Part shown: in pieces, positions 4,029 to 27,887 of the stretch
Numbering within the stretch: the stretch's first letter is position 1
How the letters are laid out: every line of letters starts with the position of its first letter
Assembly: GCA_021776095.1 (NCBI GenBank)
Contig: JAJFGO010000006.1
Location: forward strand, 1 to 64,000
Source of the DNA: Kiloniellaceae bacterium
Lineage (GTDB): Bacteria; Pseudomonadota; Alphaproteobacteria; Kiloniellales; J153
Length of the DNA: 64,000 nucleotides
Direction: 5' to 3'
Notes under the pieces: generated by a model
The model's input: the letters and a program-made list of their open reading frames with translations, nothing else
Database searches by the model: none
What the model was told of the DNA's origin: nothing
Translations under genes and position numbers: made by a program

Positions 4029-4030
4029 CG

Positions 4031-8488: not shown

Positions 8489-8493
8489 TGCAA

Positions 8494-9201: not shown

Positions 9202-12184
9202 GGTTCCCTCCATCCAAAGCCGATGATATCTCCTCAAGGTCCTCGCGAACTTGCTTCAGCGCCGTTTTGACGGCATCGAGATCGTATCCCCCATCTTCTA
9301 GTCGGGCCTCGACATTATTCTTCGCCTTTCCCAGAACATCATCTGCTTGCTTAATAAGATCATCGGTGGCAGCCATGGTACCTCTGACACCCAAGGCCAC
9401 ATTCCAGGGGCGAATTTTCTTCTCATTTTTCAAATTGCGCACCGCCCGAACCGCCTCAGCATACTTTGACTGAGCGAACTGTTGAGCCCTAATTTGCAAT
9501 TCACCGCTTCCTAGAATTCCGAGTTTCGATATATCAGAGACAGTCTTTCTGAAAAGCTCAGAAATCATTTTCCCGTCGGTTTCCTCTCCAAAGGCAGTCT
9601 CGACGCGTTCCAGCCATTTTAGTCTTAGCTCGACCTCTTTCTGAAGTGCATTGTCCAATTGCGAATGCACGATCTTCGCGAGCGAGTAAACTTCTTTGTG
9701 CCAAGGCACACGAAGTTCGCCATCGTCGGCCAACTCCATCAACCGATAGTCTCTCCCGCGAAAACCCTTCATCGCTTCGACCAAGATGCTTGAGTTCATA
9801 AAATTGCCGAGCTGTCCTCCTTTTGTGGCTGCGGCGCCTTCTTGAATTGCTCGTGTTAAGATGCCCTCCTTCTGGCCAATTAGCGTAACTAACTTCTCCA
9901 AATCTGGAGAAGCATAGGCGGTTTGATTACCAAGCGGCTTAAGGCCGAGTTCCAGCAGATCGAGCTTGTTCGGGCCCTTCTCCATTGGCGTTGATAGCAA
10001 TACGCCAAGCACTCGAAGTTCAAGCGACGCGGAGGCGGGATTCCAGCCCTTCGGCCCCGCCTTAAGAGCAAGCATTTGCTCGGTCACATTTTCTGCCCAA
10101 ACTCGAATACATTCTTGAAGGCAAACGAATCTCTTATGGGCATCCGGAATATCCCAGGAACCCTTTCTATTCGACTCAATCAAGCCTGCCAAAGCGAGAT
10201 AAGTGGAGGTGCGTTCGTCCAAGTTTTCCCATTTCAGAGGAACTTTTAGGCTAACCTGCGAACCTAGTTTGGGCTTCGTAGATTGATTTTCGAAAATAAC
10301 CGAACTCTGCTTGAACAGCCCGTTGGTCCCCGCCCACATGGATTTTGAGCAACCAATTTCATCCCAGTTGATAAACCCGCAAACAGAATCAAAAACCAGC
10401 GGCCTCAGTTCGTTCGCTAGTTGTTGAGTCATCTTGGTATCTTTATTCGCCCAACGACTAAGTTCGTCTACCTCACGCGGCTTCGGGTCTGGTCGTGGGT
10501 TTAGTACTGGTGGCTTAGGGCGGCCTGGCGGCGGCTCAGGTGCAATAACATCAGCAGAAAGAGGCTTCAGATCAAAAGCTTCCTGAATTCGCTTATCCAA
10601 GTTAATTGCGCGAGTTTCGCCGCCCCAGAGCACAATGAGCGTCAAATGTCGATCGGCATCATTGGGCGATTGGTGTTGGATCGCATTCTGCTCATCGGGC
10701 GGGAAATTTTTCAATCCGCCGAGATCTCGTAATAAGGATTTTGCCGGGAACCGCCCCCCTGAAAGTTCGGAAGTAAGTTGCGACACGGGGCGCAAAACGG
10801 CTTTTTGGAACTCTCGCACGTTGAAATGCTGATCCACATGTTCATCAGCTCGGTGCGCCATCACATCGGTAGCGCGTCGTGTAAAGGGATAAAGGCCGAA
10901 TCCCTCTTCCTGGCCAAAGGCAGCGTGACATATAACTTTGTGCTCACATTCGTCACAGGCTGATTCGATCTCAAACGACGCTTCGCGCTCCTTCTCAATC
11001 TCCCAAGCCTGTCGAAGTTTTTCCGGTCCCAATCGAACAGCGTTCATATAGCGGGCGACCATTCCATACAAATTGAACGCGTCACGACCTTTCCCGAGCG
11101 GATTATCCATATTAATTACAAATGTTGCGCGTGTTTGTACCGTATTTTCTAACGAGCCATAAAAACCGGTTGTACAGGCAAAAACCGTTCGGAGCGCACA
11201 AATCTCATCATCACCTTGATCCAAAACACTTTGCAAAAGAGCGCGGTCCAAGCCCTGCAGTCGAGCGAAGTCCTCAATAAGCAAGATCAGTTCCTTGCCC
11301 GACTTTTTTAAGTTTTGGCGCATCTCCGTCATGATCTGGATAAGATGATCGCCACTCAGATTGAGGCATCGCGCGATCGCCGCGTCCGTATGGCGATTGA
11401 TAATATCCACCGCCTTTTGACGAATTTCGACCGGTTGGCCATGGATAAACTGCAAAAATTCTCGCGTGGATCCGGCTGCTCTCATCAAGCTCTCAACTTC
11501 TAACGGGAGATCGTCGAGTGAGAATTCTCGTCTTCGCTGGGCGGGTTTGTAGCCCTCCGGTCGCTCATAGATGTGGGCGGCCAATTCTGCAGCGAAACCA
11601 TCACATTTTAGGAAGTGCTGCTCACGGATGTAGGGATCAATGAGCAAATCGCTCAATCCCTTGATCAGGTACTCCTCCATCTCTTTGTCCGCGGCATCGG
11701 GATTGCCGGGATCATTTTTAAGTTCAGTCTGAATATTGTTCAGGACTGAGGATCTTTGGGCATTAACTGTCAACGTGCTCGTCCCCGTGCCCTGAAGCAT
11801 ATTCAGATATTGCTCCTGGGCTGCTTCAGGAATCCGTTCAATGAGCGCTCGAACGATATCCCTTAGGTTAGTCTTCGCTTTTGGAACGAAGAGCACCTCC
11901 CGACTATCATCCCGCTTAATCCGAAGGGTTAGCCACCGCACCAAATGCGATTTACCGGCACCTGAGTCGCCAATGACCGGAACCAAGGCAAAGTTGGGCT
12001 CTTCTAGAAACTGGGTGAGCACCTCTTCGGCACTGAAAATTGAAGTTTTCTGCCGCTTAGGATCTTGCTGGCGAATGGGAGTTTCCGTATGGACCGCGCG
12101 AAAGAACGCATCGGGTTGCGCATCTACATCCGGATTAATGATCTTTCGGGCGTCCTCACGTTTCCAGCAGACAAAGTTTTTCAT
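9185..12184 (-). CDS. dpdH: DpdH, P-loop ATPase of the Dpd system
   Basis: The protein has 999 residues. An N-terminal P-loop NTPase domain is clear: Walker A GDSGAGKSH at about 72-80 and Walker B ELILLIEDFARL at about 298-309, with the acidic pair ED as in STAND/AAA-type ATPases. A Cys/His cluster (C410, C413, C419, H420) inside the ATPase region may bind zinc. A proline-rich linker near 540-570 separates it from a long, mostly helical C-terminal part. A large ATPase beside helicases and a nuclease is typical of multi-subunit restriction systems, where it may gate or power cleavage (inference). It begins 11 bases after dpdG ends and overlaps dpdI. Confidence 0.83.
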   Translation of the reverse strand: MKNFVCWKREDARKIINPDVDAQPDAFFRAVHTETPIRQQDPKRQKTSIFSAEEVLTQFLEEPNFALVPVIGDSGAGKSHLVRWLTLRIKRDDSREVLFVPKAKTNLRDIVRALIERIPEAAQEQYLNMLQGTGTSTLTVNAQRSSVLNNIQTELKNDPGNPDAADKEMEEYLIKGLSDLLIDPYIREQHFLKCDGFAAELAAHIYERPEGYKPAQRRREFSLDDLPLEVESLMRAAGSTREFLQFIHGQPVEIRQKAVDIINRHTDAAIARCLNLSGDHLIQIMTEMRQNLKKSGKELILLIEDFARLQGLDRALLQSVLDQGDDEICALRTVFACTTGFYGSLENTVQTRATFVINMDNPLGKGRDAFNLYGMVARYMNAVRLGPEKLRQAWEIEKEREASFEIESACDECEHKVICHAAFGQEEGFGLYPFTRRATDVMAHRADEHVDQHFNVREFQKAVLRPVSQLTSELSGGRFPAKSLLRDLGGLKNFPPDEQNAIQHQSPNDADRHLTLIVLWGGETRAINLDKRIQEAFDLKPLSADVIAPEPPPGRPKPPVLNPRPDPKPREVDELSRWANKDTKMTQQLANELRPLVFDSVCGFINWDEIGCSKSMWAGTNGLFKQSSVIFENQSTKPKLGSQVSLKVPLKWENLDERTSTYLALAGLIESNRKGSWDIPDAHKRFVCLQECIRVWAENVTEQMLALKAGPKGWNPASASLELRVLGVLLSTPMEKGPNKLDLLELGLKPLGNQTAYASPDLEKLVTLIGQKEGILTRAIQEGAAATKGGQLGNFMNSSILVEAMKGFRGRDYRLMELADDGELRVPWHKEVYSLAKIVHSQLDNALQKEVELRLKWLERVETAFGEETDGKMISELFRKTVSDISKLGILGSGELQIRAQQFAQSKYAEAVRAVRNLKNEKKIRPWNVALGVRGTMAATDDLIKQADDVLGKAKNNVEARLEDGGYDLDAVKTALKQVREDLEEISSALDGGNHAQPN

Positions 12185-12195
12185 GACGCTCGACC

Positions 12196-13047
12196 TTAGA
12201 CCTTTACCAGGCTTATGTGTGAGACAACGCGGTCCTCTTTATCCAGACCCACCATCAGCAGTGCTGGAGCATCGGCGAGGCGATCAAGCTTGATTGTGCC
12301 TCTGAGTTCTAGTCTGGAAAGCGCAAGCGAACTCGATTGAGAGAGATACTTGGGGTCCCTGGGTGTTCTCAACCGTGCCTCGACCTCGTTGCGTATCCAC
12401 CCAGTCTCAAACACCGGAATTTCGCGAGCAAGTTTGTCAAACGTATCCGCAACAGGGGTTTGATGTTTCTTTTCGAGAACCATGGTAAATGCCGCGGCCA
12501 TGGCGCGTGTCGGGTCTGGATTGCAATAATCAGTGCCGTTGAAATTCACCCACTCCGCAAAACCCAAGGCTTGCGCCCAATACATCAGCATGCTGGACCG
12601 ACTTGAGTTGGTTAGCTCATAGATGTCGTCGCCGTCCAAATCTTTGAGCAACTGAACTTGGAACTCTCCCCCGCTCGCCAAACGCGGCCCAATGGGACGA
12701 GTCAAAAACCAGGCCAAAGCCCTCGCGAAAGCTTCGTTGCCATTACTCTCGTCGTCTTTTGACGGAAGCAACTTGGCCCTGCAAAATGCTAGAAACTGAT
12801 CATGGTTGGAGATTTGCTTCTTTGAGATATCCGGGCTGAGACGGAGGGTCTTCGAGATCTTTTCATCAAAAACGACACCCAACCGAATGCTTTCGCGAAG
12901 AAGGTTGTTGATTTGATCATGGATCTCGACGCCAGGCACAACACGTCGGGCTAAGTCATTGCGTGACAACTGGTTCTCTGATGCGACGACCTCTGCAAGA
13001 GCCCGGATCCGGTTCGGCATCGCCTCTAGGCTAATTAGGATGCTCAT
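12196..13047 (-). CDS. dpdG: DpdG, Dpd-island protein
   Basis: This is a 283-residue protein with no recognisable catalytic motif. The N-terminal 70 residues (including the stretch SRNDLARRVVPG) look like a winged-helix fold, so DNA binding is possible. The ATG overlaps the TGA of dpdF as ATGA, a strong sign of translational coupling. Identification is by position between the RecQ-like DpdF and the ATPase DpdH, the conserved order in Dpd islands. Function is unknown; a DNA-reading or bridging subunit is an inference only. Confidence 0.72.
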   Translation of the reverse strand: MSILISLEAMPNRIRALAEVVASENQLSRNDLARRVVPGVEIHDQINNLLRESIRLGVVFDEKISKTLRLSPDISKKQISNHDQFLAFCRAKLLPSKDDESNGNEAFARALAWFLTRPIGPRLASGGEFQVQLLKDLDGDDIYELTNSSRSSMLMYWAQALGFAEWVNFNGTDYCNPDPTRAMAAAFTMVLEKKHQTPVADTFDKLAREIPVFETGWIRNEVEARLRTPRDPKYLSQSSSLALSRLELRGTIKLDRLADAPALLMVGLDKEDRVVSHISLVKV

Positions 13048-15536
13048 CTCAAATACCTCTCGAAAAATTGCCGCATGCTGATCTTGGTGACCGTCAATAT
13101 GTCAGCGACTTTCCTTTCTGGATTGCTCGCATCTCTCGCACCTTCGGGAATGAATATGATTTCGACATACTGCGTGGGACCATTGTTTAGACGATCGCCT
13201 CTAAGCTCAACATCGGTTCCGCTGAAGATGATCGTGTTTCCTTTTGGCCATAAGGGTCGGCGCCATTCACGATCTCGAACCAATAGCCAAGGCCGATCCG
13301 ACAATGCGCCGCCAAGGGCTGCTGTAATCCAGTCCGGTATCTTGCCGATGCAAATCGACACTTTGAACCCTGACTGGTCCAGGCGCTTGAGGGTTTTCTC
13401 AAAATCCCGCGCTCTAATTCCGCTGGGTAAAGACGGAGTGTATTCGACGACCATCCGACCTCTCTCCCCGAGGTCCGCTTTGACAGCCTCAGAAACCTCC
13501 GGGGCATAGGGCCAAGGAATCGGTACTTCACCGACAATTTGGCTTGGTCGACGCGCTCCTGGATTAAGCCGACAACGTCGGCAACGGGTGCATGCGTGAG
13601 CGCAATTGGGGTAGAGGCTGGCAATGAGTTTGGCCGGGCATTCTTGAGCCCGCACCAGTCGTTCAAGCAGATTGAATGAATGTGCATTGGCCACAGCGAT
13701 TTCCCTGCGTCGCCTCTCAAAGACGTCTCCCCAAACTTCTTTGAGAAGGTGCCCATCTGCACAAATCTGCAGCGCTTGATAAGGTGGCACTTCCTCACTG
13801 AGTTCGGCCTCAATCTGGGGAACGCCTGTCAACTTGATCATGCCGCTCCTGGCCATCATTGAGAGCACCCTTGCATTCCAGTCGATGCTGCGCTCTCCCA
13901 CTAGGTCGATATCCTCTTCAGAGGTACCGGGTGCGGTATCTAACCGAACACCGTATTTCATGTCACCTAGGTTGATCCGATCCCTACTTTCGAACATGGC
14001 TTTCCAGCGCTGAAGTCCACGATCGACGGTAATGACTTTTTGTTGGGATAGTCCTTTCGCCACCTTCTGATCTCCGTAGGCTGGAACAAGCAAGGAAATT
14101 GAGCTGCAGCCATCTCGGCCACCTCGACCCACCTCTTGGTAAAAGCGATCCAGTCTCTCCGGCATACAGGCGTGGATAACCGTTCGAATGTGCGGATAGT
14201 CAACGCCAAGACCAAAGGCAGAGGTGGCAACGACGAGATCGAGGGTTCCCGCTGCCCAGGCGGTCAAGGCAGCTTCACGTTCACCTGACGCACTTCCACC
14301 GTGGACCATCCTGATTCGAACGAAGCCAATATTTTGCCGGAGATGACGGTGCCAATATTCAGCATCATCTACTTTGGTTACGTAGACGATTGCGGGTCTT
14401 GGCAAGTGGAGCAAGGCCTCAACTACTCGGTTCTCCCGCTCAATGGGGTCAGCAAAGTCCGCAACCCAAAATTCTGGCTCAGGTCGGATGCTCACAGCGG
14501 ATACCAGGGGAATCTCCGCATTGGGAGAGAACAATTCCCTGAGAGTCTCCCGCGCCATTTTGGAGAACGTCGCGGACAAGAAAATCAATCGAAAGGATCG
14601 TTCTTTCTCGGCGCCCGTGCGCCATTGGTGACAAAGACCTGCGAAGGTCTGAAATTCCGTTCTGAAGCCTGTGCCCCATGCCTCAACCAAATGCGCTTCG
14701 TCGATGACAATTGCTCGGAGCCCATCATTCTCCAAAACCTTCGAAATCGCGTACCGTAGGGGCCCGACAACCGCCTCCGGTGCGGCAAAGAGCAATTCCT
14801 GGTGTCCCGCATGAATCGCTTCAATGATTCTTGCATTTCGTTTCGCTTGGCCGCCGACATAGGCCATTGGAGACGAAGGGTTTCCGCCACAAGATCGCTC
14901 ATGGTCTAGAGCCAAGGTAACAGTTGGAACGATCACCACGGTGAGGGATTTTCCTTTCCCCGGTGGATCGCTGGCAAATCCAATTTTTTGCACTGCCCGA
15001 AAAACCAGGCTTTTTCCTTCACCCGTCGGCAGGTCGATAATGAGTTTTGAACCGGGGGGCATACCAAGCGCAGCACGCACACCCGATCGCTGACCGATAC
15101 TGCGATATCCAGTTAAACCAAATTGTGCCAGAAAGGGGTCTCCCGCAATGAGATCTTCGGCGTGAAACCGCTTTCGCTCGGCGCGCATACCTGCCTCGTC
15201 AGCAGGCACGACCTTCGAGTCCACCAGCCAACCCGGTTGCCACGGCCGAGCAACGGCTGAAAAACCTTTCGGAGTTTCGTTGACTTCGAGACCCGCTTTT
15301 CTGAGTTGATCGCCGTCAATGAGAGGAGTTTCAAAACGCACATCGTATTTCCGGTCTAAGGATTCGTATCGAAGTGCGTGACGCATCAGAACCGCAAGAT
15401 CAAGCGGACTGGCATCTTGATTTTTCAACGCAACGCGCAACCGCTCAAACGGCGGATCTGCAAATGGCGTTTCATAATCGGCCTCGCCCCGAAGTGCGCG
15501 CGCAAGGTATGCAAAGGCTTCATTTCCCCGCAGCAT
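13044..15536 (-). CDS. dpdF: DpdF, RecQ-like ATP-dependent DNA helicase
   Basis: This 830-residue protein has a full RecQ-type SF2 core: Walker A TGEGKS at about 171-176, DEAH in VIDEAHLVEAWG, motif III LSATFS, motif V VATSAFGLGVDYPH and motif VI QEVGRGGRDG. After the core comes a Cys-rich segment (CPAKL, then CAHACTRCRRC) that resembles the zinc-binding subdomain of RecQ helicases. The C-terminal 150 residues are unassigned. The ATG overlaps dpdE by 17 bp and its stop overlaps the dpdG start. RecQ-like enzymes unwind DNA 3'-5'; here it probably exposes or processes DNA for the Dpd restriction arm. Confidence 0.88.
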   Translation of the reverse strand: MLRGNEAFAYLARALRGEADYETPFADPPFERLRVALKNQDASPLDLAVLMRHALRYESLDRKYDVRFETPLIDGDQLRKAGLEVNETPKGFSAVARPWQPGWLVDSKVVPADEAGMRAERKRFHAEDLIAGDPFLAQFGLTGYRSIGQRSGVRAALGMPPGSKLIIDLPTGEGKSLVFRAVQKIGFASDPPGKGKSLTVVIVPTVTLALDHERSCGGNPSSPMAYVGGQAKRNARIIEAIHAGHQELLFAAPEAVVGPLRYAISKVLENDGLRAIVIDEAHLVEAWGTGFRTEFQTFAGLCHQWRTGAEKERSFRLIFLSATFSKMARETLRELFSPNAEIPLVSAVSIRPEPEFWVADFADPIERENRVVEALLHLPRPAIVYVTKVDDAEYWHRHLRQNIGFVRIRMVHGGSASGEREAALTAWAAGTLDLVVATSAFGLGVDYPHIRTVIHACMPERLDRFYQEVGRGGRDGCSSISLLVPAYGDQKVAKGLSQQKVITVDRGLQRWKAMFESRDRINLGDMKYGVRLDTAPGTSEEDIDLVGERSIDWNARVLSMMARSGMIKLTGVPQIEAELSEEVPPYQALQICADGHLLKEVWGDVFERRRREIAVANAHSFNLLERLVRAQECPAKLIASLYPNCAHACTRCRRCRLNPGARRPSQIVGEVPIPWPYAPEVSEAVKADLGERGRMVVEYTPSLPSGIRARDFEKTLKRLDQSGFKVSICIGKIPDWITAALGGALSDRPWLLVRDREWRRPLWPKGNTIIFSGTDVELRGDRLNNGPTQYVEIIFIPEGARDASNPERKVADILTVTKISMRQFFERYLR

Positions 15537-18500
15537 TTGGCGCCTCCGGTGATAAAACCATCATGCCACACTCATCTAATCGCAGATGCGGCGAAACGAT
15601 CGCCTGGCGGATTGTATCTAAATCGGCGAGGGCTTCATCAACCCCCCCGAAGACCTGATTGAACTCATTACGGAGGTATGCCTGCCGGCGTTCCAAGCTC
15701 CGACGAATTAGTGCATCGTCCCGTTCGAAACGCGCCCTCGCCCGTGCCAACGCTTCCACAACAGCTTCACTCCCCCAGGCATCTTGCGAAGCCTTCGCCC
15801 GGATTTCTTTGAGGGTGTCTCGCAACACAACTGGATCGACGACCTCAGCCATAGCATCGGGCCGACTGCCTAGATTGATATCAAACACTCCCGCATCATT
15901 GGGCTTTTTCACATAGTGACGCCGGAGGTGGACAAGCAAAGCCTCATCCTCCACTGGGTCTCCATGGAAATCGGTCCATTGCTTAATGCTGAGAATGGGA
16001 AGGTAACTTTCAGTCCGACGACACAGATCTGGCCGATCGACTTCTTTCCAAACAGCGGTCTCTGAAGATAAGCCAGGGCTTAAAACCCAAACCCAGTGAA
16101 AGCCGATCCAGATCTCCGCCATACTGGGATCCACACGCCAGGTCACATATGCCGTCCCGCGATCATCCCAATTTGCAATTCGCTCCAGCGCGTTAAGTAA
16201 GGGTGAACCGGGGCGCAACAAGATGGGAAATTCGGATGAGAGTTGCGACAAGTTTCGGCGCCAGGTTAAGGGTCGGTCGACGGATGCCTCCAAAACCCGC
16301 TGCCAGGGAATACGGGGTAAAAGCGGCCTATCCCAAAAAACCCGATGGGTTTCCTTTAACTGAGGAACCGCTGGGTTCTGGTTGATATGCAAAACCTCAT
16401 GCATCCAACTTGAGACCGCCCCATTTAGTTCTTCTTCATCTTCCTCGGCCTCTTCCATCCGTTCGATGAGAGGCATTGCATCCTCATTAAGATTCGCAAT
16501 TTCATCCAGTGCATGTTGTTCGTTTAGCTTTTTCCGCTCTTCCTCGATCATCTGCGAGACGAGTTCGGAGACTTCTTCTGCGCAACCGCCGCCTTCGGAG
16601 AGCATACGAGACCAGATCAGGGTCTCTAGTTCGTTTAACTTGAACTGTATATCGCTCACCGACCCATTGAAGATACGGAAACCGTTCTTCAGGATTTTCA
16701 TCCAGGCGTACCAGGGAGCATCCTCATCATCGTCAGGTAGAAATATCCGATGCTCCAATTTCCGCAGTTTCCGCCCAAACCGGTCAAGGCGCCCGATCCG
16801 TTGCTCCATCCGGCCAACATCCGTCGGCAAATCTAAATGCAAAATGGCGTTTACGAACTGGAGATTGAGTCCTTCCTCTTCATCTATGCTGCCAATCAAG
16901 ATCCAGCTTTGAGGATCGTCTTTGAAGGCAGCAATCTTTTGTTCACGTTCAAGTTCGTTCGACGCGTCAGAGAGGTTCAGGACATCATAGGGTCCAAAAT
17001 ATTTTCGGAACGCTATGTACGCCTTTGCAGCATCTTCGCGATCGGAAATAAAACAGATGATCTTGGGACCACGTTGGCTGAGTTTCCGCTGTTGCTCTGC
17101 TCTCCAAGCTTTCAACTCGTCACAAATGGCGATCAACCGGGTTTCCCGATCGAAGTCACTGGATGCGACTACCTTCAGGGCCGTCAGGTATGCCTCTTCG
17201 CCCTCAAAAAACGGGGTCATGGATTCGAGAAGGCGCCCTAGAGCCGACCGGCTTAGAAACGAGGCGGTAACCAGGGCGTACCACCGCTCAGCAAGTTGAA
17301 CGTTTATGCCGTTCGCAGCAGAAGACGCCGAGATCCGCCAGGCCTCGAGCGCATCGGAGAGATCGCTGCTCCAGGACGTGGTGTCAAAAAACATTCGCAC
17401 ATGACCCAAATAAGGCCAGGACTCCGCTCGAGGTTGCATGGCCCAGTCCTCTGCATCCAATCTCCGGGATCGCAAAAGACGATCGTGGATTCGATAGGTC
17501 CGCGCGATATGGTCACGCAATAAGACAATGGCTTGATCGCGTCGCGCAGAATTTTCCCCGGACCCGACAACGTCCGTTGCAATTGATTGTACATACCGGT
17601 CCTCGGGAAACATGGCCATTGCGCTCTTCGCCTGGGCCTTCACCACGAATGCGGTACCGCCGGGCTGCATGGTCATGAGCAAGCGGCCAATTTCTTGGCG
17701 GCTCTCGACTTTGCGTCGAAATCCCTCCAAGTCATCTTTTGGATAGGCCGATGGGTCGAGCAAGTGCAAGAGCCCAAACAAGCGAGCCTCGTCTCCGAGT
17801 GCCGGAGTTGCAGACAGCAACAATAGGCTCTCGACGCGATGAGCCAATTCTTCGATTGCGACTGCGACGGCGTCCTGATCATCCACCTCGGTAGCGACCA
17901 CGCGGTGCGCCTCGTCAACGACCAGCAGATCAGGGGTACGCCGGAGATTCTGGCTGGCCTCATAGCTCAGAACCTGAACGTTGGGCGATGACGGATCGAT
18001 ATAGAAACGCGTCTGCAATTCCGCCCGCCACTGTGAGACAAGCTTTTCGGGGACCAGGACCACGACCTGGAGATCCCGACGATCAAGCAGCATCTGGCGA
18101 ATGATGCACCCGGCTTCAATCGTTTTTCCCAGGCCGACTTCGTCCGCAAGGAGATAGCGAACTAGGGTATCTTGCAGCACCTTACGGACGGTCGACATCT
18201 GGTGCGGCACCAACTCGATGGCAGAGGAATAGGGGCCCGTTAATCCCTCACAGGCGGACCGCAAATCTCTGATAGCCTTTAGCGCCCCTCGGCGCCGATC
18301 TGCCACCGCTTGGGTTTCGGCGCATCCTGCCGCTAGTGTTTCAGCAGGATCGGCATAAACATCGAGACTGCGAACGAAGAGGTCGGTCTCAGCCAGATCT
18401 TGATTGTCCTGGTTCGGGAATCGCACTTCGTAGTGGGTGGCTTCATCATCTTCATTGAGATGGGACATCACTCGGCCTACGCGCCAGTAGCCATGCGAGA

Positions 18501-18693
18501 TTTCAACAAAGACACGGGCTTCCCGGGGGAGTTCGAGACGAGAAATCAGGGAAACATCGGCGGTCTCGATGGTCCGTTCTGCAACCGAGTGGAAAAACTC
18601 GATGGTGGCCGTTGTTTCCGCGATATCGATGAGCTTAGCGAAAACCCGGTCATCGTCGTGCACTAAGACGATCCCTTCTTGAATGAAACTCAC
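15520..18693 (-). CDS. dpdE: DpdE, SNF2/HepA-family DNA translocase
   Basis: This is the first gene of the restriction-arm operon, 1057 residues. The N-terminal 150 residues hold small beta-rich domains like the Tudor-like repeats of RapA/HepA. The SNF2 core follows: ADEVGLGKT with Lys190, DEAH at 260-263, LLLLSATP, and the C-terminal motifs GSIDEEEGLNLQ and RMEQRIGRLDRFGR. Proteins with this layout slide on double-stranded DNA; the related DISARM protein DrmD is similar, but the neighbours here are Dpd-specific. The start is a GTG preceded by GGGGAGAG. The promoter must lie in the noncoding scar upstream (18694-19475), where I could not assign -35/-10 boxes. Confidence 0.87.
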   Translation of the reverse strand: MSFIQEGIVLVHDDDRVFAKLIDIAETTATIEFFHSVAERTIETADVSLISRLELPREARVFVEISHGYWRVGRVMSHLNEDDEATHYEVRFPNQDNQDLAETDLFVRSLDVYADPAETLAAGCAETQAVADRRRGALKAIRDLRSACEGLTGPYSSAIELVPHQMSTVRKVLQDTLVRYLLADEVGLGKTIEAGCIIRQMLLDRRDLQVVVLVPEKLVSQWRAELQTRFYIDPSSPNVQVLSYEASQNLRRTPDLLVVDEAHRVVATEVDDQDAVAVAIEELAHRVESLLLLSATPALGDEARLFGLLHLLDPSAYPKDDLEGFRRKVESRQEIGRLLMTMQPGGTAFVVKAQAKSAMAMFPEDRYVQSIATDVVGSGENSARRDQAIVLLRDHIARTYRIHDRLLRSRRLDAEDWAMQPRAESWPYLGHVRMFFDTTSWSSDLSDALEAWRISASSAANGINVQLAERWYALVTASFLSRSALGRLLESMTPFFEGEEAYLTALKVVASSDFDRETRLIAICDELKAWRAEQQRKLSQRGPKIICFISDREDAAKAYIAFRKYFGPYDVLNLSDASNELEREQKIAAFKDDPQSWILIGSIDEEEGLNLQFVNAILHLDLPTDVGRMEQRIGRLDRFGRKLRKLEHRIFLPDDDEDAPWYAWMKILKNGFRIFNGSVSDIQFKLNELETLIWSRMLSEGGGCAEEVSELVSQMIEEERKKLNEQHALDEIANLNEDAMPLIERMEEAEEDEEELNGAVSSWMHEVLHINQNPAVPQLKETHRVFWDRPLLPRIPWQRVLEASVDRPLTWRRNLSQLSSEFPILLRPGSPLLNALERIANWDDRGTAYVTWRVDPSMAEIWIGFHWVWVLSPGLSSETAVWKEVDRPDLCRRTESYLPILSIKQWTDFHGDPVEDEALLVHLRRHYVKKPNDAGVFDINLGSRPDAMAEVVDPVVLRDTLKEIRAKASQDAWGSEAVVEALARARARFERDDALIRRSLERRQAYLRNEFNQVFGGVDEALADLDTIRQAIVSPHLRLDECGMMVLSPEAPNAAGK

Positions 18694-19068: not shown

Positions 19069-19152
19069 TTAGCCGAAACGCCGGCGCACAGCCGCCAGCT
19101 CCTTGAGGCGTTCGCGCAGAAGCAGCGGCCGCTGTCGGGGCGGCTCATACTG
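19069..19152 (-). pseudogene. IS3-family transposase OrfB scrap
   Basis: The minus-strand reading gives LRERLKELAAVRRRFG, the well-conserved segment near the N-terminus of IS3-family OrfB that normally continues into GYRRLH. Here it stops at once. Only about 28 codons survive, so this is the trace of an old insertion at the junction between the two dpd operons. Confidence 0.55.
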
Positions 19153-19337
19153 CCAGGTCGAGAGATTGAGATTAGCAGGCCTGCACCTGGCGTGCCTCGA
19201 CGAGGCACCGCGTTGCGGCAACTTCGACAACCTGTTGGACGTTGCCCAGACCATAAACAACGACTACGAACTGCCCCTGGCGGAAGTGCCAATAGGGTAT
19301 GGACCTCTAGCGGCGAGTCCGCTTAGAGGGGGATGTC

Positions 19338-20862: not shown

Positions 20863-20884
20863 CTAGATTCGGGGGAACGGGTCA
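20863..20884 (+). repeat. 22-bp sequence shared with 1356-1377 (possible IS end)
   Basis: This is the second copy of the CTAGATTCGGGG...GGTCA block, two bases different and in the same orientation. It sits exactly where the queD reading frame breaks off, so an insertion carrying this end probably truncated that gene. Confidence 0.5.
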
Positions 20885-20952
20885 CCCGGGTCGACGTTCG
20901 CCGCGAGTTGATGTGCGGCCTCAAACGTGAACTCCTTGAAGAGTTCGATCAT
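20863..20952 (-). pseudogene. queD: Truncated second queD copy (6-carboxytetrahydropterin synthase)
   Basis: The minus strand opens with ATG and reads MIELFKEFTFEAAHQLAANV, then runs out into GDPFPRI and a TAG. The first twenty residues match the N-terminus of QueD, including the first zinc-ligand His in EAAH; everything after residue about 23 is lost. It begins three bases past the queE stop, so it was once the next gene of the preQ0 operon. It differs clearly from the intact queD at 21580, so it is not a recent tandem copy. Bases 20634-20862 hold nothing else that I recognise. Confidence 0.75.
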
Positions 20953-20954
20953 TT

Positions 20955-21587
20955 TTACCGGATCCCAATGATTTTGTGGGTCTGAAGGCTGAGGCGCCAC
21001 TGCGGGTATTTTAGGCAATAGGCAATTGCAGCTTGCGTGTTCGCCTCGAGGTCCGGGCCGTCCATAGGCTGCAGGAAACGATGTTCAAACTGAAGCTTTT
21101 CGAATCGCTCCGGCGCCGCGCCTACTTGGGGATAGACGAGCTTGATTTCTTGGCCCTCTCGGATAGCAAGGTCCGTATCAGCCTTGGGGCTTACACATAT
21201 CCAATCGATCCCAAATGGTGCATTGAGGGTGCCGTTGGTCTCGATTGCGATCTCGAATCCCCGAGCGTGTAACGCATCGATAAGGCCTCTATCGAGTTGT
21301 AAAAGTGGTTCTCCCCCCGTGCAGACAACTAACCGCTTTTCGGCCGAAGCGGCGAGCCACTTCAGAGCAACCTGATCGCCAAGTTGGTCGGCCGTCTCGA
21401 ACTTTCCGCCACCTGTTCCATCGGTCCCAACGAAGTCCGTATCGCAAAATCGACAGATGGATGTGCTCCGATCCACTTCCCGCCCGGACCAGAGATTACA
21501 TCCAGAAAACCGGCAAAAGACGGCTGGGCGGCCAACATTCGCGCCTTCGCCCTGCAGCGTATAGAAAAGTTCCTTTACGCTATACAC
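20955..21587 (-). CDS. queE: 7-carboxy-7-deazaguanine synthase QueE (radical SAM)
   Basis: QueE converts 6-carboxytetrahydropterin to 7-carboxy-7-deazaguanine, the ring-contracting step of preQ0 synthesis. The radical SAM cluster motif is the CX14CX2C form (C30, C45, C48 from the start chosen here), common in proteobacterial QueE. TLQGEGANVGRP near the N-terminus, GGEP at 91-94, ETNGT, SPK and the terminal QTHK are all intact, so it should be active. I prefer the GTG at 21587, which overlaps the queD stop and puts the conserved YSVKELFYTLQGEG at the start; a longer start at 21626 is possible. It is the last intact gene of the modification operon. Confidence 0.93.
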   Translation of the reverse strand: MYSVKELFYTLQGEGANVGRPAVFCRFSGCNLWSGREVDRSTSICRFCDTDFVGTDGTGGGKFETADQLGDQVALKWLAASAEKRLVVCTGGEPLLQLDRGLIDALHARGFEIAIETNGTLNAPFGIDWICVSPKADTDLAIREGQEIKLVYPQVGAAPERFEKLQFEHRFLQPMDGPDLEANTQAAIAYCLKYPQWRLSLQTHKIIGIR

Positions 21588-21942
21588 TTTGGCATTCCGC
21601 CCAGCAATTAGGCGTTTCGTAGACACGGACCGCTGTCGTTTCTGGCCACTGACCGGCGCACCATTCGAGCAAATGCTTTGCGATCATCTCGGCACTGGTG
21701 CTCTCGAGCAGATCGTTGAGATGGCGATGATCCATGTTATCGTTGATATAAGTTTTCAAATCCGACAACATTCCAAAGTCGCGTACGAATCCGTGTTCAT
21801 CCACTTCGGCCCCACCAAGTTCAATCTCGACAATGTAATTATGCCCGTGGAGTCGTGCACACTTGTGGTCATCCGGCAAAGACGGAATGGAATGGGATGC
21901 GCTGAACTCAAACCTCTTACGTATTGTCCATTTACAATTCAT
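21580..21942 (-). CDS. queD: 6-carboxy-5,6,7,8-tetrahydropterin synthase QueD
   Basis: This is a 120-residue QueD that turns dihydroneopterin triphosphate into 6-carboxytetrahydropterin. All active-site groups are visible: zinc ligands H17, H32 and H34 (SASH, LHGH), catalytic C28 in DDHKCARLHGH, DHRHLN at 71-76 and E109. The ATG at 21942 is preceded by GAGG; a TTG ten codons upstream is less likely. It overlaps queE at its 3' end. The upstream enzyme, GTP cyclohydrolase FolE, is not encoded in the island, so the pterin substrate must come from the host folate pathway. Confidence 0.94.
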   Translation of the reverse strand: MNCKWTIRKRFEFSASHSIPSLPDDHKCARLHGHNYIVEIELGGAEVDEHGFVRDFGMLSDLKTYINDNMDHRHLNDLLESTSAEMIAKHLLEWCAGQWPETTAVRVYETPNCWAECQSV

Positions 21943-21997: not shown

Positions 21998-22621
21998 TTA
22001 ACGAGCCATCGCTTTAAGGTTATTTGTCAAATCCATACTTAATCTCCACTGCGGGTTATCCATGCACCATTCGACCGCCATGTGAAGGTTGCTTTCGTAA
22101 TTTCGTCCCACCATCGGCCGGACAAAATAGTGTTCGAAATGAAGTTTTGATAGAGCCTCGATATCGAGATTCTGTGGCCAGTCGACCTTCAATTCGCTGC
22201 CCCATTTGAGAACGAGATCAGTGCCAGCCACGGGTGATACGGTAATCCAGTCGACGGCACCTGGTGGCATCATCGTTCCGTTTGTTTCGACCGCAACCTT
22301 AACCCCCTCAGCATGCATAGCGTTGACGAGTTCGTTGTCCAGATGAAGGAGAGGATCCTCCCCGGTGCATAGGACAGTGGCGAGATATCGATCGTGCTTT
22401 GGCCATTTTGATGCGATTACCCGCGCGAGCGACTTTGGTGATTCATAGATTCCCCGCTCAAGGCATTCCAGATGGGGGTAATCGTCGTCTGAGTTATCAG
22501 GCGAAGTTGCTTGGCTTTGGCTCGATTTGCCGTTTTCGAAGCGACAAAGCACAACGGGACGCCCTGTGTTCGCACCTTCCCCTTGAAGCGTGTATACGAC
22601 CTCTGCGACCGGGTAGCACAT
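21998..22621 (-). CDS. Degenerate QueE paralog lacking the radical SAM cluster cysteines
   Basis: This 207-residue protein clearly descends from QueE: VVYTLQGEGANTGRP, VETNGTM, AVDWITVSP and NPQWRLS match the active copy downstream. The catalytic features are gone. The CX14CX2C region is replaced by a Ser/Asp-rich stretch with at most one Cys (C53), GGEP has become GEDP, SPK has become SPV, and the terminal QTHK is lost. The frame is intact, has a GAAGGA ribosome binding site and lies 11 bases after queC, so it is expressed-looking rather than decaying. It cannot act as a radical SAM enzyme; a regulatory or scaffold role for the preQ0 pathway is a guess. Confidence 0.85.
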   Translation of the reverse strand: MCYPVAEVVYTLQGEGANTGRPVVLCRFENGKSSQSQATSPDNSDDDYPHLECLERGIYESPKSLARVIASKWPKHDRYLATVLCTGEDPLLHLDNELVNAMHAEGVKVAVETNGTMMPPGAVDWITVSPVAGTDLVLKWGSELKVDWPQNLDIEALSKLHFEHYFVRPMVGRNYESNLHMAVEWCMDNPQWRLSMDLTNNLKAMAR

Positions 22622-22632
22622 GGTCGGATCCT

Positions 22633-23346
22633 TCAACTAGCCTCTTGAAGGCGTTCAGGTCGGAACTTGTTCCAGCCCTGAGCTCTAAGTTCGCAAGCGG
22701 GGCAGGTCCCGCAGCCATAGCCCCAGGAATGACGTTGATCTCGGTTTCCCAGGTAACAGGTGTGGGTATCCTCGACGATCAAATCGACAAGGGATTTGCC
22801 GCCAATATCATGAGCAAGCTCCCAGATCTGGCTCTTGTCGATCCACATAAGCGGCGTGTGGATGACAAAGCGCTTGTCCATCCCAAGGTTCAACGCAAGT
22901 TGAACTGCCTTAAGTGTGTCGTCGCGGCAATCCGGATAGCCCGAGAAATCTGTCTCACACATGCCACCGACAAGATGTTTTGCGCTGCGCCGGTAGGCAA
23001 CAGCACCCGCAAAGTTCAGGAAGACAAGGTTTCGGCCCGGCACGAAGGTAGTCGGAAGGCCATTCTCGCCCATCGCAATCTCTGCATCTCGCGTCAGCGC
23101 CGTTTCACTAATCGAACTGAGGACCGAAATATCAAGAACATGGTCTTCGCCAAGTTTGCTGTCCCAGTTCGGGAAGCGCTCTCGAACATGATTCAAGACC
23201 GTCCCGCGACAGGTCAGTTCGATCGCGTGGCGTTGACCGTAATCGAAGCCTATCGTTTCGACCTGCTCAAATCGTTCAAGTGCCCAGGCGAGGCAAGTCG
23301 TGCTGTCCTGTCCTCCGGAAAATAGAACGAGTGCTTTGTTCGTCAT
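22633..23346 (-). CDS. queC: 7-cyano-7-deazaguanine (preQ0) synthase QueC
   Basis: QueC uses ATP and ammonia to turn 7-carboxy-7-deazaguanine into preQ0, the base that DpdA places in DNA. In 237 residues the PP-loop SGGQDS is at 10-15, [14 protein letters not shown] marks the active-site region, and a zinc site is formed by C197, C212, C215 and C218. The ATG follows a perfect GGAGG and lies 15 bases after dpdB. It is the first preQ0 gene read after the transferase genes, so modification and precursor supply are on one transcript. Confidence 0.95.
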
Positions 23347-23361
23347 GTCTTGTGAACCTCC

Positions 23362-24483
23362 TCAGTTCAGCAGAACCGCTTGCTCTGCCTCCAGCGGATC
23401 AGATGTGGAGACCGGCACCCGCTTATCGATAGAAATCCCTTGGTCGCGGACGACGCGAACCAGGTAGTCGCTCAACAGGCGAATATCCGCAGATATATTT
23501 TGGATCTTGTTCCAAGGCCGTTGCTCGGATCGGAAATCCCAGTTTCCTGATGTCCAGGCAACATGCGGTGTTAGGCATCGAATGCAATTTGCAAAGCCCT
23601 CCCGAGATTTCACACCGTGTAAGGCGTAGGCCACCTCCATGACATAACCAAGTGCGACCAGTCCGGCACCATGAACGAGGCGGGAGGTCTTTGGATTCAT
23701 ACCAATCCAACCCTCCGGGAATATGTCCTGGACGGCCCCGTAGAAATCACTCAGCAAACGAAACGCTTGCTCTTCCCCATCAGGAAGATAGACAAGCTCC
23801 CGGATCGCGCCGTTGCTTCGTGAATTCATGATCACGCGTTGGATGGCATTGCTTGAAAGAATACCGCCTGGACTCGTGTGTTGACGGATCCTCCCGCGGA
23901 GGGTGGACTCCTTGTCATAGTTTAGTTTTGCCGTCATCGCCGCTGCGAAAGAGCGATTGGAGAGTCTGTGAGGAAGTCCGCTCACGGTCGGGAGAAGCTC
24001 ATAGATCAACTCTTTTGGCAGCGGGCGAGTATTGTTGATAAGGATAAATTGCCGCCGAAGCTCTTCCTCGCTCTTACAGAGAATGGCGGAGACAAAGATT
24101 TGGAAATCCCGATCCTGAAGAGGTTGAAGGGCTGAGAGCCTCTGCTGTCCATCGACAACCAATCCCGGCGGTCCCTCTGTTACATCGATCTCCACCTGGA
24201 GAACCTCATCTTCGGATTCCCTGATCTCGACGCCAGCAACGAAAGCCAACACAACTGAATTCGGTAGTACGGCGTCATCGCGCTTGAGGTAGTCTCGGAT
24301 CTCGAGGATATGCTGAGCCACTTGAGGCCTCTGGAAGCCAAAAAGGTCTCCTGTCTCTGTTCGGCCGACACGCTCGATACGCGCGATTTCGAGTACTTCT
24401 CGCGCGGTCGCAGCGAACGTGAAGACGGGATGTCCCTCACTCTGCCGCGCTTTGATGGCTTTGAATGTTAATCGATCGGTCAT
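23362..24483 (-). CDS. dpdB: DpdB-type DGQHR-domain protein (copy 1)
   Basis: This is a 373-residue member of the DGQHR/ParB-like family related to DndB. The signature reads VVDGQQRLSAL with DGQQR at 111-115, followed by QFILINNTRPLPKELIYELLP, both hallmark segments. In Salmonella Montevideo DpdB works with DpdA to insert preQ0 into DNA, and ATPase activity has been ascribed to it. The ATG is preceded by GGAAGCGAAG and overlaps dpdA by 47 bp. A second, clearly divergent relative lies on the other side of dpdA. Which of the two is the orthologue of the characterised DpdB cannot be decided by eye. Confidence 0.87.
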   Translation of the reverse strand: MTDRLTFKAIKARQSEGHPVFTFAATAREVLEIARIERVGRTETGDLFGFQRPQVAQHILEIRDYLKRDDAVLPNSVVLAFVAGVEIRESEDEVLQVEIDVTEGPPGLVVDGQQRLSALQPLQDRDFQIFVSAILCKSEEELRRQFILINNTRPLPKELIYELLPTVSGLPHRLSNRSFAAAMTAKLNYDKESTLRGRIRQHTSPGGILSSNAIQRVIMNSRSNGAIRELVYLPDGEEQAFRLLSDFYGAVQDIFPEGWIGMNPKTSRLVHGAGLVALGYVMEVAYALHGVKSREGFANCIRCLTPHVAWTSGNWDFRSEQRPWNKIQNISADIRLLSDYLVRVVRDQGISIDKRVPVSTSDPLEAEQAVLLN

Positions 24484-25792
24484 TGTACTTCGCTTCCTTC
24501 AAGCGCTTGATGTGTTTTCCGTAGACAGCAAGGTTGTGGATCCCACGACGTTTGTTCCGATTGCTCGCACGAAATAGGATTACCTCGACGGAGATCTCCG
24601 AGCACACGGCGCAGGCACATCTTTGCCAGGGACGGTTCTCCAAAGTGTGACGTGTGCGGTCGCGTATTCCGGAAAGTTTCCGTTCTTCGGCCTCAGAGTG
24701 CCCTTGGTCTCGACCGAAAGCGAAGGGCTTTGTGTAATCCATTATCAAGGAGAGTGTTTCCTCAATACCGGCCTTTCCTCGGTCATAGGCGCGTAGCGAC
24801 CCAATCGCGGCCTGCTCCCTTTTTTGGAGATCTTCCTGTGTGTAGACACCCGCCTTGGCGAGTCTTTTCAGGGTGTTGTTCTCGAGGGCCTGAGGAATAC
24901 GAATGGCTGTATAGTATTCGAGCCGCCCATTAGCACCTGGCAAAAAATAATTCTGTTTTGCATCCTTGAAGGCCCGGATCAGCGGCGATGTCGTATCGAA
25001 GCTGGAGATTCTGTGTGGCGAGAAGTCCGCAATTTCATCGGCTTTTGCGAAGCCCAAGATATGGATTGAAATGTTGTAGCCGATCTCGTCGCGGATCGCG
25101 TCCAGCGCCTTATGAATTTGTGCTGACCTGAGCGGGACCATACCGCCGATTGCAAGATAGCCGTAACCCATGTCGACGAGTACACGGGCAGCCTTTGCCA
25201 TCGATAGGGGCGACCAGCCTTGGACAACGCCGAGGGGCGTGAAATGATTATCGAGGCGTTTGCTCTTTTGCAGGAAGTCGGCCGCGTTGTCGATAGTAAG
25301 CTGGAAACGGCGCAGGTTCTCCTTGGCCCGCTCTTCCTGGGATTCCTGGTAATCCCGTTCTTGTTCCGGCGTCAGTTCCTCAAAGTCAAAGATGATGTGG
25401 TCGACGGAACAGCCATGCGTGAAGGCACCGTCCCCATAGAAGTCGACCATGTCCTCAGCGTTGTAGGGCGGTTCCTCGAACTTGTGATAGGCGAACGCCC
25501 CACAGTCTCCAAATACGAGCGAATTCGGATAGTCCGGCTCACGGAACCTGTGGAATTCACGAACTCCGACGCGGCGAAAGCGCATGGCCTGCGACTGGTT
25601 GTATTTGCCCTGAATCGCGTGGCCGCCTACGATTGAGCGAGAAACGAGGATGCCGTCATAGGGCGCATAGCCGAGTAACTCGTGCGGGAACTTGTCGTCC
25701 CAATAGACTTCGCGGTCCGGCGGAGAGCGGTCCGCCAGGAAGTCATAGCGTGGATCGACGAAATCCAGGCTATCCGCAAAGATGAACTTCAT
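24437..25792 (-). CDS. dpdA: DpdA, DNA-guanine transglycosylase (TGT-like)
   Basis: DpdA swaps guanine in DNA for preQ0. The protein is 451 residues from the ATG at 25792, chosen because GGAGG sits 4 bases upstream and it overlaps the preceding stop as ATGA; a longer open frame upstream lacks support. TGT-fold landmarks are seen in order: FGDCGAF with D96, VVQGW at 189-193, LAIGGM at 213-218, and FDTTSP with D266 at the place of the nucleophilic Asp. The zinc motif CXCXXC is formed by C392, C394 and C397 with H419. Lys/Arg-rich segments at the C-terminus probably contact DNA. It is flanked by two dpdB-like genes. Confidence 0.93.
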   Translation of the reverse strand: MKFIFADSLDFVDPRYDFLADRSPPDREVYWDDKFPHELLGYAPYDGILVSRSIVGGHAIQGKYNQSQAMRFRRVGVREFHRFREPDYPNSLVFGDCGAFAYHKFEEPPYNAEDMVDFYGDGAFTHGCSVDHIIFDFEELTPEQERDYQESQEERAKENLRRFQLTIDNAADFLQKSKRLDNHFTPLGVVQGWSPLSMAKAARVLVDMGYGYLAIGGMVPLRSAQIHKALDAIRDEIGYNISIHILGFAKADEIADFSPHRISSFDTTSPLIRAFKDAKQNYFLPGANGRLEYYTAIRIPQALENNTLKRLAKAGVYTQEDLQKREQAAIGSLRAYDRGKAGIEETLSLIMDYTKPFAFGRDQGHSEAEERKLSGIRDRTRHTLENRPWQRCACAVCSEISVEVILFRASNRNKRRGIHNLAVYGKHIKRLKEAKYNDRSINIQSHQSAAE

Positions 25793-26919
25793 GCAGCCTC
25801 CTGGGACGCCGCGAAGTCGAGTTGTACGAGGAGTTCGGCAAGTGCCTTGATATGGCGGGGCGTGTTTTGGATATCGTTCCAGTTGAGGCCAAGACCTTCC
25901 CAGGCACCCCCGATCCAGCAACAGTAAGGCGCAATTCTTTCCAACGCGGCCCGCACGTCACGGTGTATGTCTTGAGCGCTGTGAAGACGCGGCATCAGCC
26001 GGTCCATGAGAATGCCCATCGCCATGATACCGGCCGAATGCATGAGCCGGCTTTCCTGGGGCTTTTTCCCCCAGGCTTCGGGGAAAACTTCCTTCACGGC
26101 AGTCCAGTAAACACACATGACGCGGTACATCGCATCGACGTCAGACCCTCCGTCACCCATGTTCTTGAAGAGGGCAAGCGCTCCGTAATTGTTTATCGAA
26201 TTCTTCATGACATTGATAAGCGCCGTGTCCTGAATGACGGCTTGAGGGTTCGTATCCGTCAAAGAAACCCGCTTGATGAGTTGGTAGAATGGCGACTTCG
26301 GGTCACGGTTAAGAAGGTTGCAGAGTTCGCTGGGGATCTTGCTGGTCTTAAGGTCCGACGGCAGTTCTGTGCTGATTTCAGGCAGAAGTTCATTAATCAA
26401 ACGCCTCGGCAAAGGTTTCGCCTTGTTCACCAGAATGAATTGCTCGCGTTGGATTTCCAGGTCAGACGCGACGAACCCCACGACAGGGACCACGATGTCC
26501 TGATTGACTGATTTCGAGAGGGCGAGCGATCGTTGTTGTCCGTCCACGATCCATGCGGCACGTCGCCCCTCGTTGCGGATAGGGATATTGAGCGTGCCAA
26601 TGTCAGACGTTTTGGGATTGCTAATTCCCTTTGGAGCCGGACCCCGCGATTGGTTGAAATGTACTTCTTGAGATAGAGCGAGAATGATCGCGTTCGGGAA
26701 GAGTACCTGCCTTCGATCTAGATACTCGACGATGCTGCCTACATGCTGCCGGATCTCTTTTCTCTGGAACCCCTTCAGCTCCTCAGCCTCGTCTCGATAG
26801 ATCCTGGATATGTCGGCGATCTTGAGTATGTCGCTGCCCTTTAGAAAGAAGGAGTAAACGTCAACTTCATCCCCCTGGTGTGTCCTCAGAGCGCGAACTG
26901 AGATTGGGCGCTGTGTCAT
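25789..26919 (-). CDS. dpdB: DpdB-type DGQHR-domain protein (copy 2)
   Basis: This 376-residue paralog of the gene at 23362 has the same layout: FQRKEIRQHVGSIVEYLD, IVDGQQRSLAL with DGQQR at 126-130, and REQFILVNKAKPLPRRLINELLPEI. Much of the rest differs, so the duplication is old or the two came from different islands. It overlaps dpdC upstream and dpdA downstream, both as ATGA, and has a GGAGA ribosome binding site. The tight coupling with dpdA suggests the two products form a complex. Having one DGQHR protein before and one after dpdA is not the simple arrangement described for Salmonella. Confidence 0.86.
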   Translation of the reverse strand: MTQRPISVRALRTHQGDEVDVYSFFLKGSDILKIADISRIYRDEAEELKGFQRKEIRQHVGSIVEYLDRRQVLFPNAIILALSQEVHFNQSRGPAPKGISNPKTSDIGTLNIPIRNEGRRAAWIVDGQQRSLALSKSVNQDIVVPVVGFVASDLEIQREQFILVNKAKPLPRRLINELLPEISTELPSDLKTSKIPSELCNLLNRDPKSPFYQLIKRVSLTDTNPQAVIQDTALINVMKNSINNYGALALFKNMGDGGSDVDAMYRVMCVYWTAVKEVFPEAWGKKPQESRLMHSAGIMAMGILMDRLMPRLHSAQDIHRDVRAALERIAPYCCWIGGAWEGLGLNWNDIQNTPRHIKALAELLVQLDFAASQEAA

Positions 26920-27872
26920 ACTAATTCTCCCTGAGTGCCAGGCACCCTCTCGGTGACCTCATGAAAGAGACGGCGGAAACGTCCTTGCTCGCAGGCAACC
27001 TGTAGATCGTCGCGCAAGAATCGGAGCATTCGTCCAGATCGGCCTTGAACGACGTCCCAGTGCCGTCGGATCAGCCCGCGGATCTCTTCATCGCTTTTCT
27101 GGAGACGGCTTGGTATGTCAGGCAAACGCCAAGAATCGATCGCCTCACAGACCATTCGGCGATCTTTCTCCAAGGATGCGCCGTCCGCTCTGCGGGAGAG
27201 GTGGAGAGTGCAGAAGTGCCGGAGCGCGCGCTGGGCGAAATCAGCGAGCGTCCCTGCTATCGGGCTATCTGGGCCATCGAGTCTCCGATCGAAGGGCATG
27301 ATGCAGTCGTGCAGTTGCGGGCTTAGCGTCGACTCGATGCGTAGTCCAAAAAGCCTCAATCGCTTGCGGTCCCCCTCACTTACCGCATCGAGTTCGTCAC
27401 GGAGGAGTTCGGCGTATTTTTCCGACAGGGCGACGAGCAAGGTTCGCTTGGGATCCGCCCCCAGAAGACTCGGTATCGTCGCGGGTTCACTCTGATATCC
27501 GATCAAGGCACGCCGCCAGTCCGAAGGCGTCCAATGGGGGTCGGTGATCTTGTCTCCAATACTGTCCGGAGATCGGCGGGACATCGTGAGGCTGTAAGAC
27601 GGTATCTCTCGGGTCGTTGAAATCAGTCCAAGACCTGCAGAAATGATCCAAAGATCCGCCTGGAGATCGGCAGCGCCGTTCAGCGCTTCACGGAACGCGC
27701 GACCGCAATAGACGCTATGCGCTGGGCCGACAGGTGAGGCTCCTGACGTGCGTCGCGCCCACTCGGCCGACAATTCAGAGAGCGAGCCTCTCGGGAGGCT
27801 ACGGGCCTGGAGACTAGGAACAGAGGCATGCCGTTTTCGGTCAGTGCAAGTGGTAACGACTAGATACGACAT
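26916..27872 (-). CDS. dpdC: DpdC, predicted preQ0-in-DNA processing enzyme
   Basis: This is a 318-residue protein from the ATG at 27872, with a GGCGGGG element upstream; a GTG at 27887 is possible. The N-terminal half has a pattern seen in DUF6884/YaaA-like proteins: TTCTDRKR with Cys9, VYCGRAF at 54-60, ISAGLGL at 77-83 and a Pro-x-Tyr at 91-93. In Salmonella, DpdC converts the nitrile of DNA-borne preQ0 to the amide (ADG). The name is assigned from this N-terminal pattern plus its position as first gene of the modification operon; I cannot confirm the family without a search. Its start codon region overlaps a DnaA-box palindrome. Confidence 0.72.
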   Translation of the reverse strand: MSYLVVTTCTDRKRHASVPSLQARSLPRGSLSELSAEWARRTSGASPVGPAHSVYCGRAFREALNGAADLQADLWIISAGLGLISTTREIPSYSLTMSRRSPDSIGDKITDPHWTPSDWRRALIGYQSEPATIPSLLGADPKRTLLVALSEKYAELLRDELDAVSEGDRKRLRLFGLRIESTLSPQLHDCIMPFDRRLDGPDSPIAGTLADFAQRALRHFCTLHLSRRADGASLEKDRRMVCEAIDSWRLPDIPSRLQKSDEEIRGLIRRHWDVVQGRSGRMLRFLRDDLQVACEQGRFRRLFHEVTERVPGTQGELV

Positions 27873-27887
27873 CGCTTGCCCCGCCAC

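Follow-up and report, generated by a model that had tools for sequence, protein, structure and literature searches.

The Dpd island of a Kiloniellaceae bacterium (contig JAJFGO010000006.1) encodes two full-length QueE homologues, one of which, QueE2 (21998..22621), is an intact QueE-like ORF of 207 codons without the cluster cysteines. Positions refer to the window, the whole stretch of 64,000 nucleotides that was analysed, and all features of the window described here lie on its minus strand. QueE2 is tentatively regarded as a QueE pseudoenzyme, known from a single genome, that may be a partner of the active-type QueE1 of the same operon or a pterin binder. Two readings lie close together, of which a folded, non-catalytic QueE that keeps some role is preferred to decay, and neither is held firmly.

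The Dpd island and its que genes

The island is a genuine Dpd island. DpdA, two copies of DpdB, and DpdD, DpdE, DpdF, DpdH, and DpdJ score over the NCBIfam cut-offs, and DpdC and DpdG are recognised by PADLOC models. The minus-strand order is dpdC (26916..27887, PADLOC), the first dpdB (25789..26919), dpdA (24437..25792), the second dpdB (23362..24483; these three by NCBIfam/PADLOC), queC (22633..23346), QueE2, queD (QueD1, 21580..21942), QueE1 (20955..21587), and a SEC-C ORF. The restriction part follows (1544..18693), with dpdE (15520-18693), dpdF (13044-15536), dpdG (12196-13047, PADLOC model), dpdH (9185-12184), dpdJ (4031-8497), and dpdD (1544-3517). The double dpdB is not special. All six queE-bearing Dpd plasmids that were compared and have annotation show the dpdB-dpdA-dpdB arrangement, and extra dpdB copies are reported to be common, with 801 additional copies (PMC11888242).

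Several other ORFs accompany these genes. Between the synthesis and restriction parts, the SEC-C ORF (19476-20633, 385 residues) carries its motif C-terminally and below the Pfam cut-off, and it has no PADLOC, PHROG, or NCBIfam match. The ORF at 8494-9237, between dpdH and dpdJ, has a weak JetC-like (MukB-like) PADLOC match alone and is possibly a diverged small Dpd protein. Upstream of the island, ORFs at 34413-35630 and 36617-37609 are, by eye, tyrosine-integrase-like and resolvase-like. The stretch at about 19050-19180, again by eye, resembles the remnant of an IS3-type transposase.

The queC gene (237 residues) contains the signature motifs YxQxHxxE, VPxRN, and YPDC as given in PMC13329287, and it alone in the genome scores above the TIGR00364 cut-off. 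QueD1 (120 residues) scores 87.2 bits on TIGR03367, just below the cut-off of 89.25, and is nearest to an Ensifer queD (about 62%). QueE1 has CX14CX2C, GGEP, and QTHK intact, and its GTG start and the queD stop overlap by 8 nt. It lies two genes downstream of QueE2, which agrees with the first-pass annotation, where an active QueE was placed downstream in the same operon. That annotation made no mention of a truncated second queD directly after QueE1 (20863..20952). This remnant consists of 29 N-terminal codons followed by a stop, and its 29 residues share 21 identities with the queD located after QueE in locus L004.

The QueE2 frame (22621-21998) is translated without an internal stop. AAGGA lies seven bases ahead of its ATG (AAGGA-N7-ATG, 22619..22633), and this signal and the queC stop share the latter's last base; such a match is not rare by itself, with three in the window and a mean of 1.85 in shuffles. 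The start is 11 nt past the queC stop, and a gap of 55 nt separates the QueE2 stop from the queD start. GC content by codon position (0.60/0.40/0.55) is similar to that of the neighbouring genes, and the three indels relative to QueE1 (5, 1, and 2 codons) are all in frame. Neither a stop codon nor a frameshift, the marks of a pseudogene, is present. The intact frame, tight spacing, and lost QueE motifs claimed from the first reading are thus confirmed by the translation, the distance to queC, and the alignments.

Catalytic residues and predicted fold

To judge from its alignments, the homology of QueE2 to QueE is beyond doubt, and it extends over the full length of the CX14CX2C family. It matches the TIGR04508 QueE model at 182.9 bits (E 7e-54), under the curated cut-off of 240 bits, and Burkholderia multivorans QueE (BmQueE; PDB 4njg) at E 3e-44; QueE1 scores 352.5 bits on TIGR04508. 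Identity to the CX14CX2C family members compared is 34-44%. A Pfam search with QueE2 returned no family, Radical_SAM included; QueE1 matches Radical_SAM.

All three cluster cysteines of the CX14CX2C motif are gone from QueE2. The other losses relative to the family are GGEP to GEDP, the SPK lysine to V131, LQPMD to VRPMV, and QTHK to DLTN; TLQGEG, ETNGT, and R27 are retained. The cluster stretch of QueE (G-C-N-L-W ... C-x-F-C-D-T) is five residues shorter in QueE2 and is substituted by a hydrophilic Ser/Asp-rich segment. At the sequence level, this loop is not just point-mutated but unrecognisable, a point missing from the first-pass annotation. A frame-shifted loop was considered and rejected, as the other two frames of the stretch match no QueE ORF. 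QueE2 keeps 46 of the 73 near-invariant columns of the family, 3/18 in the loop versus 43/55 elsewhere (Fisher p 5e-6; p 3e-4 when the five columns that fall in a single gap are set aside). Active-site motifs (GGEP, Q93, SPK, QPMD, and QTHK) account for nine of the 12 losses outside the loop.

The active-site residues listed for Escherichia coli QueE (PMC11142719) were mapped onto QueE2 through sequence alignments. The list assigns Q13, E15, and R27 to the substrate, three cysteines to the cluster, T40 to Mg, and G94, S136, and Q189 to AdoMet. QueE2 keeps all three substrate residues, none of the three cluster residues, and one of the three AdoMet residues, a serine; the Mg residue is lost, and in all six of the ten residues are missing. 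According to the same source, alanine changes at Q13, T40, G94, S136, and Q189 singly had negligible effect, and the C31A and C35A single variants still yielded Q-tRNA (PMC11142719). Because these single changes are tolerated, only the joint loss of all three cysteines, T46, G88, and Q168 together with the loop replacement argues for a dead QueE2. With this, the earlier prediction of an intact gene for a catalytically dead protein is borne out at the level of sequence. The substrate residues that are kept could still meet a pterin.

The predicted structure has the QueE fold. The AlphaFold2 model has a mean pLDDT of 87, and its best Foldseek match is 4njg (E 5e-19, TM 0.83, rmsd 6.0); the model was built with an alignment of 34 QueE homologues, which pulls it towards the QueE fold, so this match is not independent. 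Residues 31-50 are left unordered (pLDDT about 50). Compared with CX14CX2C QueEs (TIGR04508; 4njg), QueE2 shares full-length homology, the predicted fold, and Q13/E15/R27, but it is without the cluster cysteines, the Mg threonine, GGEP, and QTHK and falls below the family cut-off.

Distribution among QueE homologues

All 220 other QueE homologues inspected keep the three cysteines. They come from sets of 38, 80, 70, 5, and 27 and comprise 209 distinct aligned sequences; the 80 viral QueEs are the best 80 of 220 viral relatives from an alignment scan. Six of these 80 and one of the set of 27 are off the cysteine pattern, and the three cysteines were read by eye in each. Left out of the 220 is locus L012, an Azospirillum plasmid queE (5959-6830) that is split into two ORFs in different frames. 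It is a truly broken queE, unlike QueE2.

The search of other Dpd islands that the first-pass annotation had recommended gave no counterpart: none of nine other islands with queE (L008-L011 and L220-L224) has a second or Cys-less QueE. These nine and an Acetobacter plasmid (L225) are the ten examined among 17 plasmid records with DpdA; one Methylorubrum record and six non-alphaproteobacterial ones lay outside. The idea of QueE2 as a conserved or general Dpd component is rejected on this recurrence of zero in nine. The Acetobacter plasmid carries dpdA and a dpdC-like gene, with no que-gene match in the 19 kb examined.

In overlapping genome samples, a QueE match occurs in 4/61 genomes of the order, 100/385 of the class, and 94/398 of the phylum, the own genome included. 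A tandem QueE pair was found only in the own genome among the 61 (E 1e-15) and among the 385 and 398 (E 1e-8). For the 93 other matching genomes of the phylum sample, cysteines were inspected in 27 loci in addition to those read earlier. This sampling says little about Dpd islands because only the own genome, out of the 385 of the class, has DpdA. In plasmid and phage collections, 26 and 5 records match QueE2, none above 44.1% identity. An exact-peptide scan of 84,980 species genomes returned one ordinary QueE and no QueE2 orthologue, and none was found in viral contigs by protein query (P0001), by DpdA, or beside QueD1 relatives. QueE2 is thus a singleton for the collections searched, and rarer or more distant orthologues may exist, also in metagenomes. 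Among the findings named in advance as speaking against a retained role, absence from relatives holds within these collections, whereas frameshifts are not seen in QueE2.

Origin of the que cluster

Since a truncated queD follows QueE1, the que cluster is best described as a mosaic with redundant genes, drawn from two or more types of operon. Among the loci compared, QueC and QueE1 are closest to locus L022 (72% and 71%), and locus L004 is among the next closest (68% and 66%). QueD1 differs in kind from the remnant queD, and its nearest relatives belong to operons of the order queC-queD-queE. It appears that QueE2 and QueD1 entered a queC-queE-queD set between queC and QueE1 and that, in the order that we infer, this set then lost its own queD. 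It is equally possible that QueE2 arose long ago by duplication of QueE1.

In the QueE tree, QueE2 as sister to QueE1 and QueE2 in a basal position are within 0.6 lnL units of each other. Descent from the QueE type of Dpd plasmids is disfavoured only. The tree took in four Dpd-plasmid QueEs (L008-L011), and attachment of QueE2 to groups around them costs 9-11 lnL units (AU p 0.05, 0.03, and 0.0007) but is not rejected by the SH test (0.22-0.33). Common descent that would pair QueE2 with QueD1 was rejected, as the QueEs beside QueD1 relatives, including that of locus L137, gave no match at E 1e-4. Searches of the rest of the genome (95% complete) gave no further queC or queE above the cut-offs, and a Tgt is present elsewhere in it. 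QueE1, QueC, and QueD1 can complete the pathway.

Decay or constraint

The strongest competitor of a retained role is that QueE2 is a redundant paralogue losing function. QueE1 would have sufficed, catalysis would have been lost, and no stop or frameshift would have been met yet. This is a real possibility, though one given somewhat less weight than a pseudoenzyme with a role. It is favoured by the mosaic cluster, where a second queD has been lost by truncation beside QueE1, by the sufficiency of QueE1, QueC, and QueD1 in a genome whose search gave no further QueC or QueE above the cut-offs, and by the absence of QueE2 orthologues from the collections searched. Its strongest point, however, comes from codon evolution.

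The codon model covered 40 QueE sequences and had three background classes of omega. Fixing omega at 1 for all sites on the QueE2 branch costs 36 lnL units relative to a free omega, whose low estimate (0.03-0.05) depends on saturated synonymous change. Normal constraint followed by neutral decay reaches lnL -17406.3 (two branch parameters), two-class new constraint -17405.0 (four branch parameters), and one constant omega -17414.3 (two branch parameters); a simple proportional relaxation of QueE constraint was discarded for its poor fit (-17444.5). Constraint followed by decay fits QueE2 about as well as new constraint and better than constant omega. The caution of the first-pass annotation about dN/dS was apt: the codon fits leave decay and constraint similar. 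The decay phase of QueE2 amounts to 0.66-0.82 neutral-equivalent substitutions per codon, and none of 39 control QueE branches has such a phase with t2 above 0.5 (about 0.1 per codon); only QueE2 does.

Other observations count against a redundant paralogue. Uniform neutral decay is rejected, with 4.2 neutral-equivalent substitutions per codon in the loop versus 0.5 in the rest (LRT p 5e-8). Non-uniform or partial decay may be compatible with the codon data, and a single event could account for the replaced loop. The probability of no stop in 207 codons is 0.04-0.07 under the fitted decay and 0.16 if the lower decay estimated for the rest of the gene is used. The hydrophobic core is kept at 42/44 columns in QueE2, the same as in QueE1 (42/44), and at 44/44 in the active QueEs of L005 and L017. 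Among changed core sites of QueE2, 10/12 are still hydrophobic versus 6.5 expected (p 0.04; 0.03-0.07 over thresholds), and the overall count of hydrophobic core columns does not reach significance at the lower decay (p 0.16 at t2 1.9, against 0.05 at t2 2.63). Core-site hydrophobicity is thus a weak signal for constraint.

The queD remnant is also far less diverged than QueE2. It is 72% identical over its 29 residues, and decay of QueE2 length would leave about 41-50% (p 6e-4 to 0.012; p 0.04 with 55% neutral identity assumed), in a test that covers these 29 residues only, assumes a starting identity of 70%, and presumes the remnant to be neutral. Since the remnant has diverged so little, the divergence of QueE2 looks older than the loss of queD. 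The retained noncatalytic job suggested in the first-pass annotation therefore stands in part. It accords with losses concentrated in the catalytic loop and motifs of a mostly kept fold, but constraint followed by decay describes the codons about as well.

Three further explanations are improbable. If queE2 served only as a translated spacer linking translation of queC to that of queD, with its protein unneeded, the start 11 nt past the queC stop would be accounted for; yet the 55-nt gap to the queD start makes for poor coupling there, and core conservation would be unnecessary. Slightly less probable again is a new cluster-free enzyme activity on the same barrel, for which the substrate-side residues are kept, but the Mg residue and most AdoMet residues are lost, and from a single sequence no new conserved motif is visible. 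A still active QueE with other ligands or an unusual cluster can be nearly dismissed, as the Q-tRNA made by the E. coli C31A and C35A single variants (PMC11142719) has to be set against the combined loss of three cysteines, T46, G88, and Q168 and a replaced loop.

A possible role beside QueE1

As a pseudoenzyme with a retained role, QueE2 would be made and folded as a QueE barrel that could not hold the [4Fe-4S] cluster, which would leave it without radical SAM chemistry. It would act beside QueE1 of the same operon, either joining a mixed QueE oligomer as its non-catalytic member or binding the pterin substrate or deazaguanine product, and would thereby tune the preQ0 supply to DpdA. The most parsimonious guess is that QueE2 partners QueE1 or holds ligands for it, since the two genes share an operon, the substrate residues are kept, and dead paralogues of other enzymes work in this way. 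In a bolder version, which is rather unlikely, QueE2 would be a non-catalytic subunit dedicated to the preQ0 branch of a Dpd system. Such a radical SAM pseudoenzyme would pair with QueE1 or hold CPH4/CDG via Q13/E15/R27 and set the flow of preQ0 into DNA.

Known systems offer partial parallels. E. coli QueE moonlights in cell division, and its R27A variant, dead for Q biosynthesis, is reported still to act on division (PMC11142719). It is a precedent for QueE function without catalysis, as proposed for QueE2. However, one E. coli protein does both jobs with its cysteines kept, whereas QueE2 is a separate paralogue. Dead paralogues act as activators in the prozyme of Trypanosoma brucei AdoMetDC (PMC5201418) and in deoxyhypusine synthase (PMC3663545). 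Like QueE1 and QueE2, these systems combine an active enzyme with a catalytically dead paralogue; their heteromers have been demonstrated, whereas a QueE1-QueE2 heteromer is putative and the pair is known from one sequence. The QueC scaffold is reused in anti-phage defence by QatC and another group (PMC13329287); these proteins, like QueE2, represent a preQ0-pathway fold in a defence setting. They are built on QueC and form families with many members, whereas QueE2 is a QueE and one gene.

A literature search by title and the start of the abstract, with the principal Dpd publications from 2016, 2018, and 2023 and a 2024 review outside its scope, found no such protein. If the proposed role is true, a DNA-modification and restriction island would retain a dead QueE next to a live one, and the preQ0 supply would be controlled by a pseudoenzyme.
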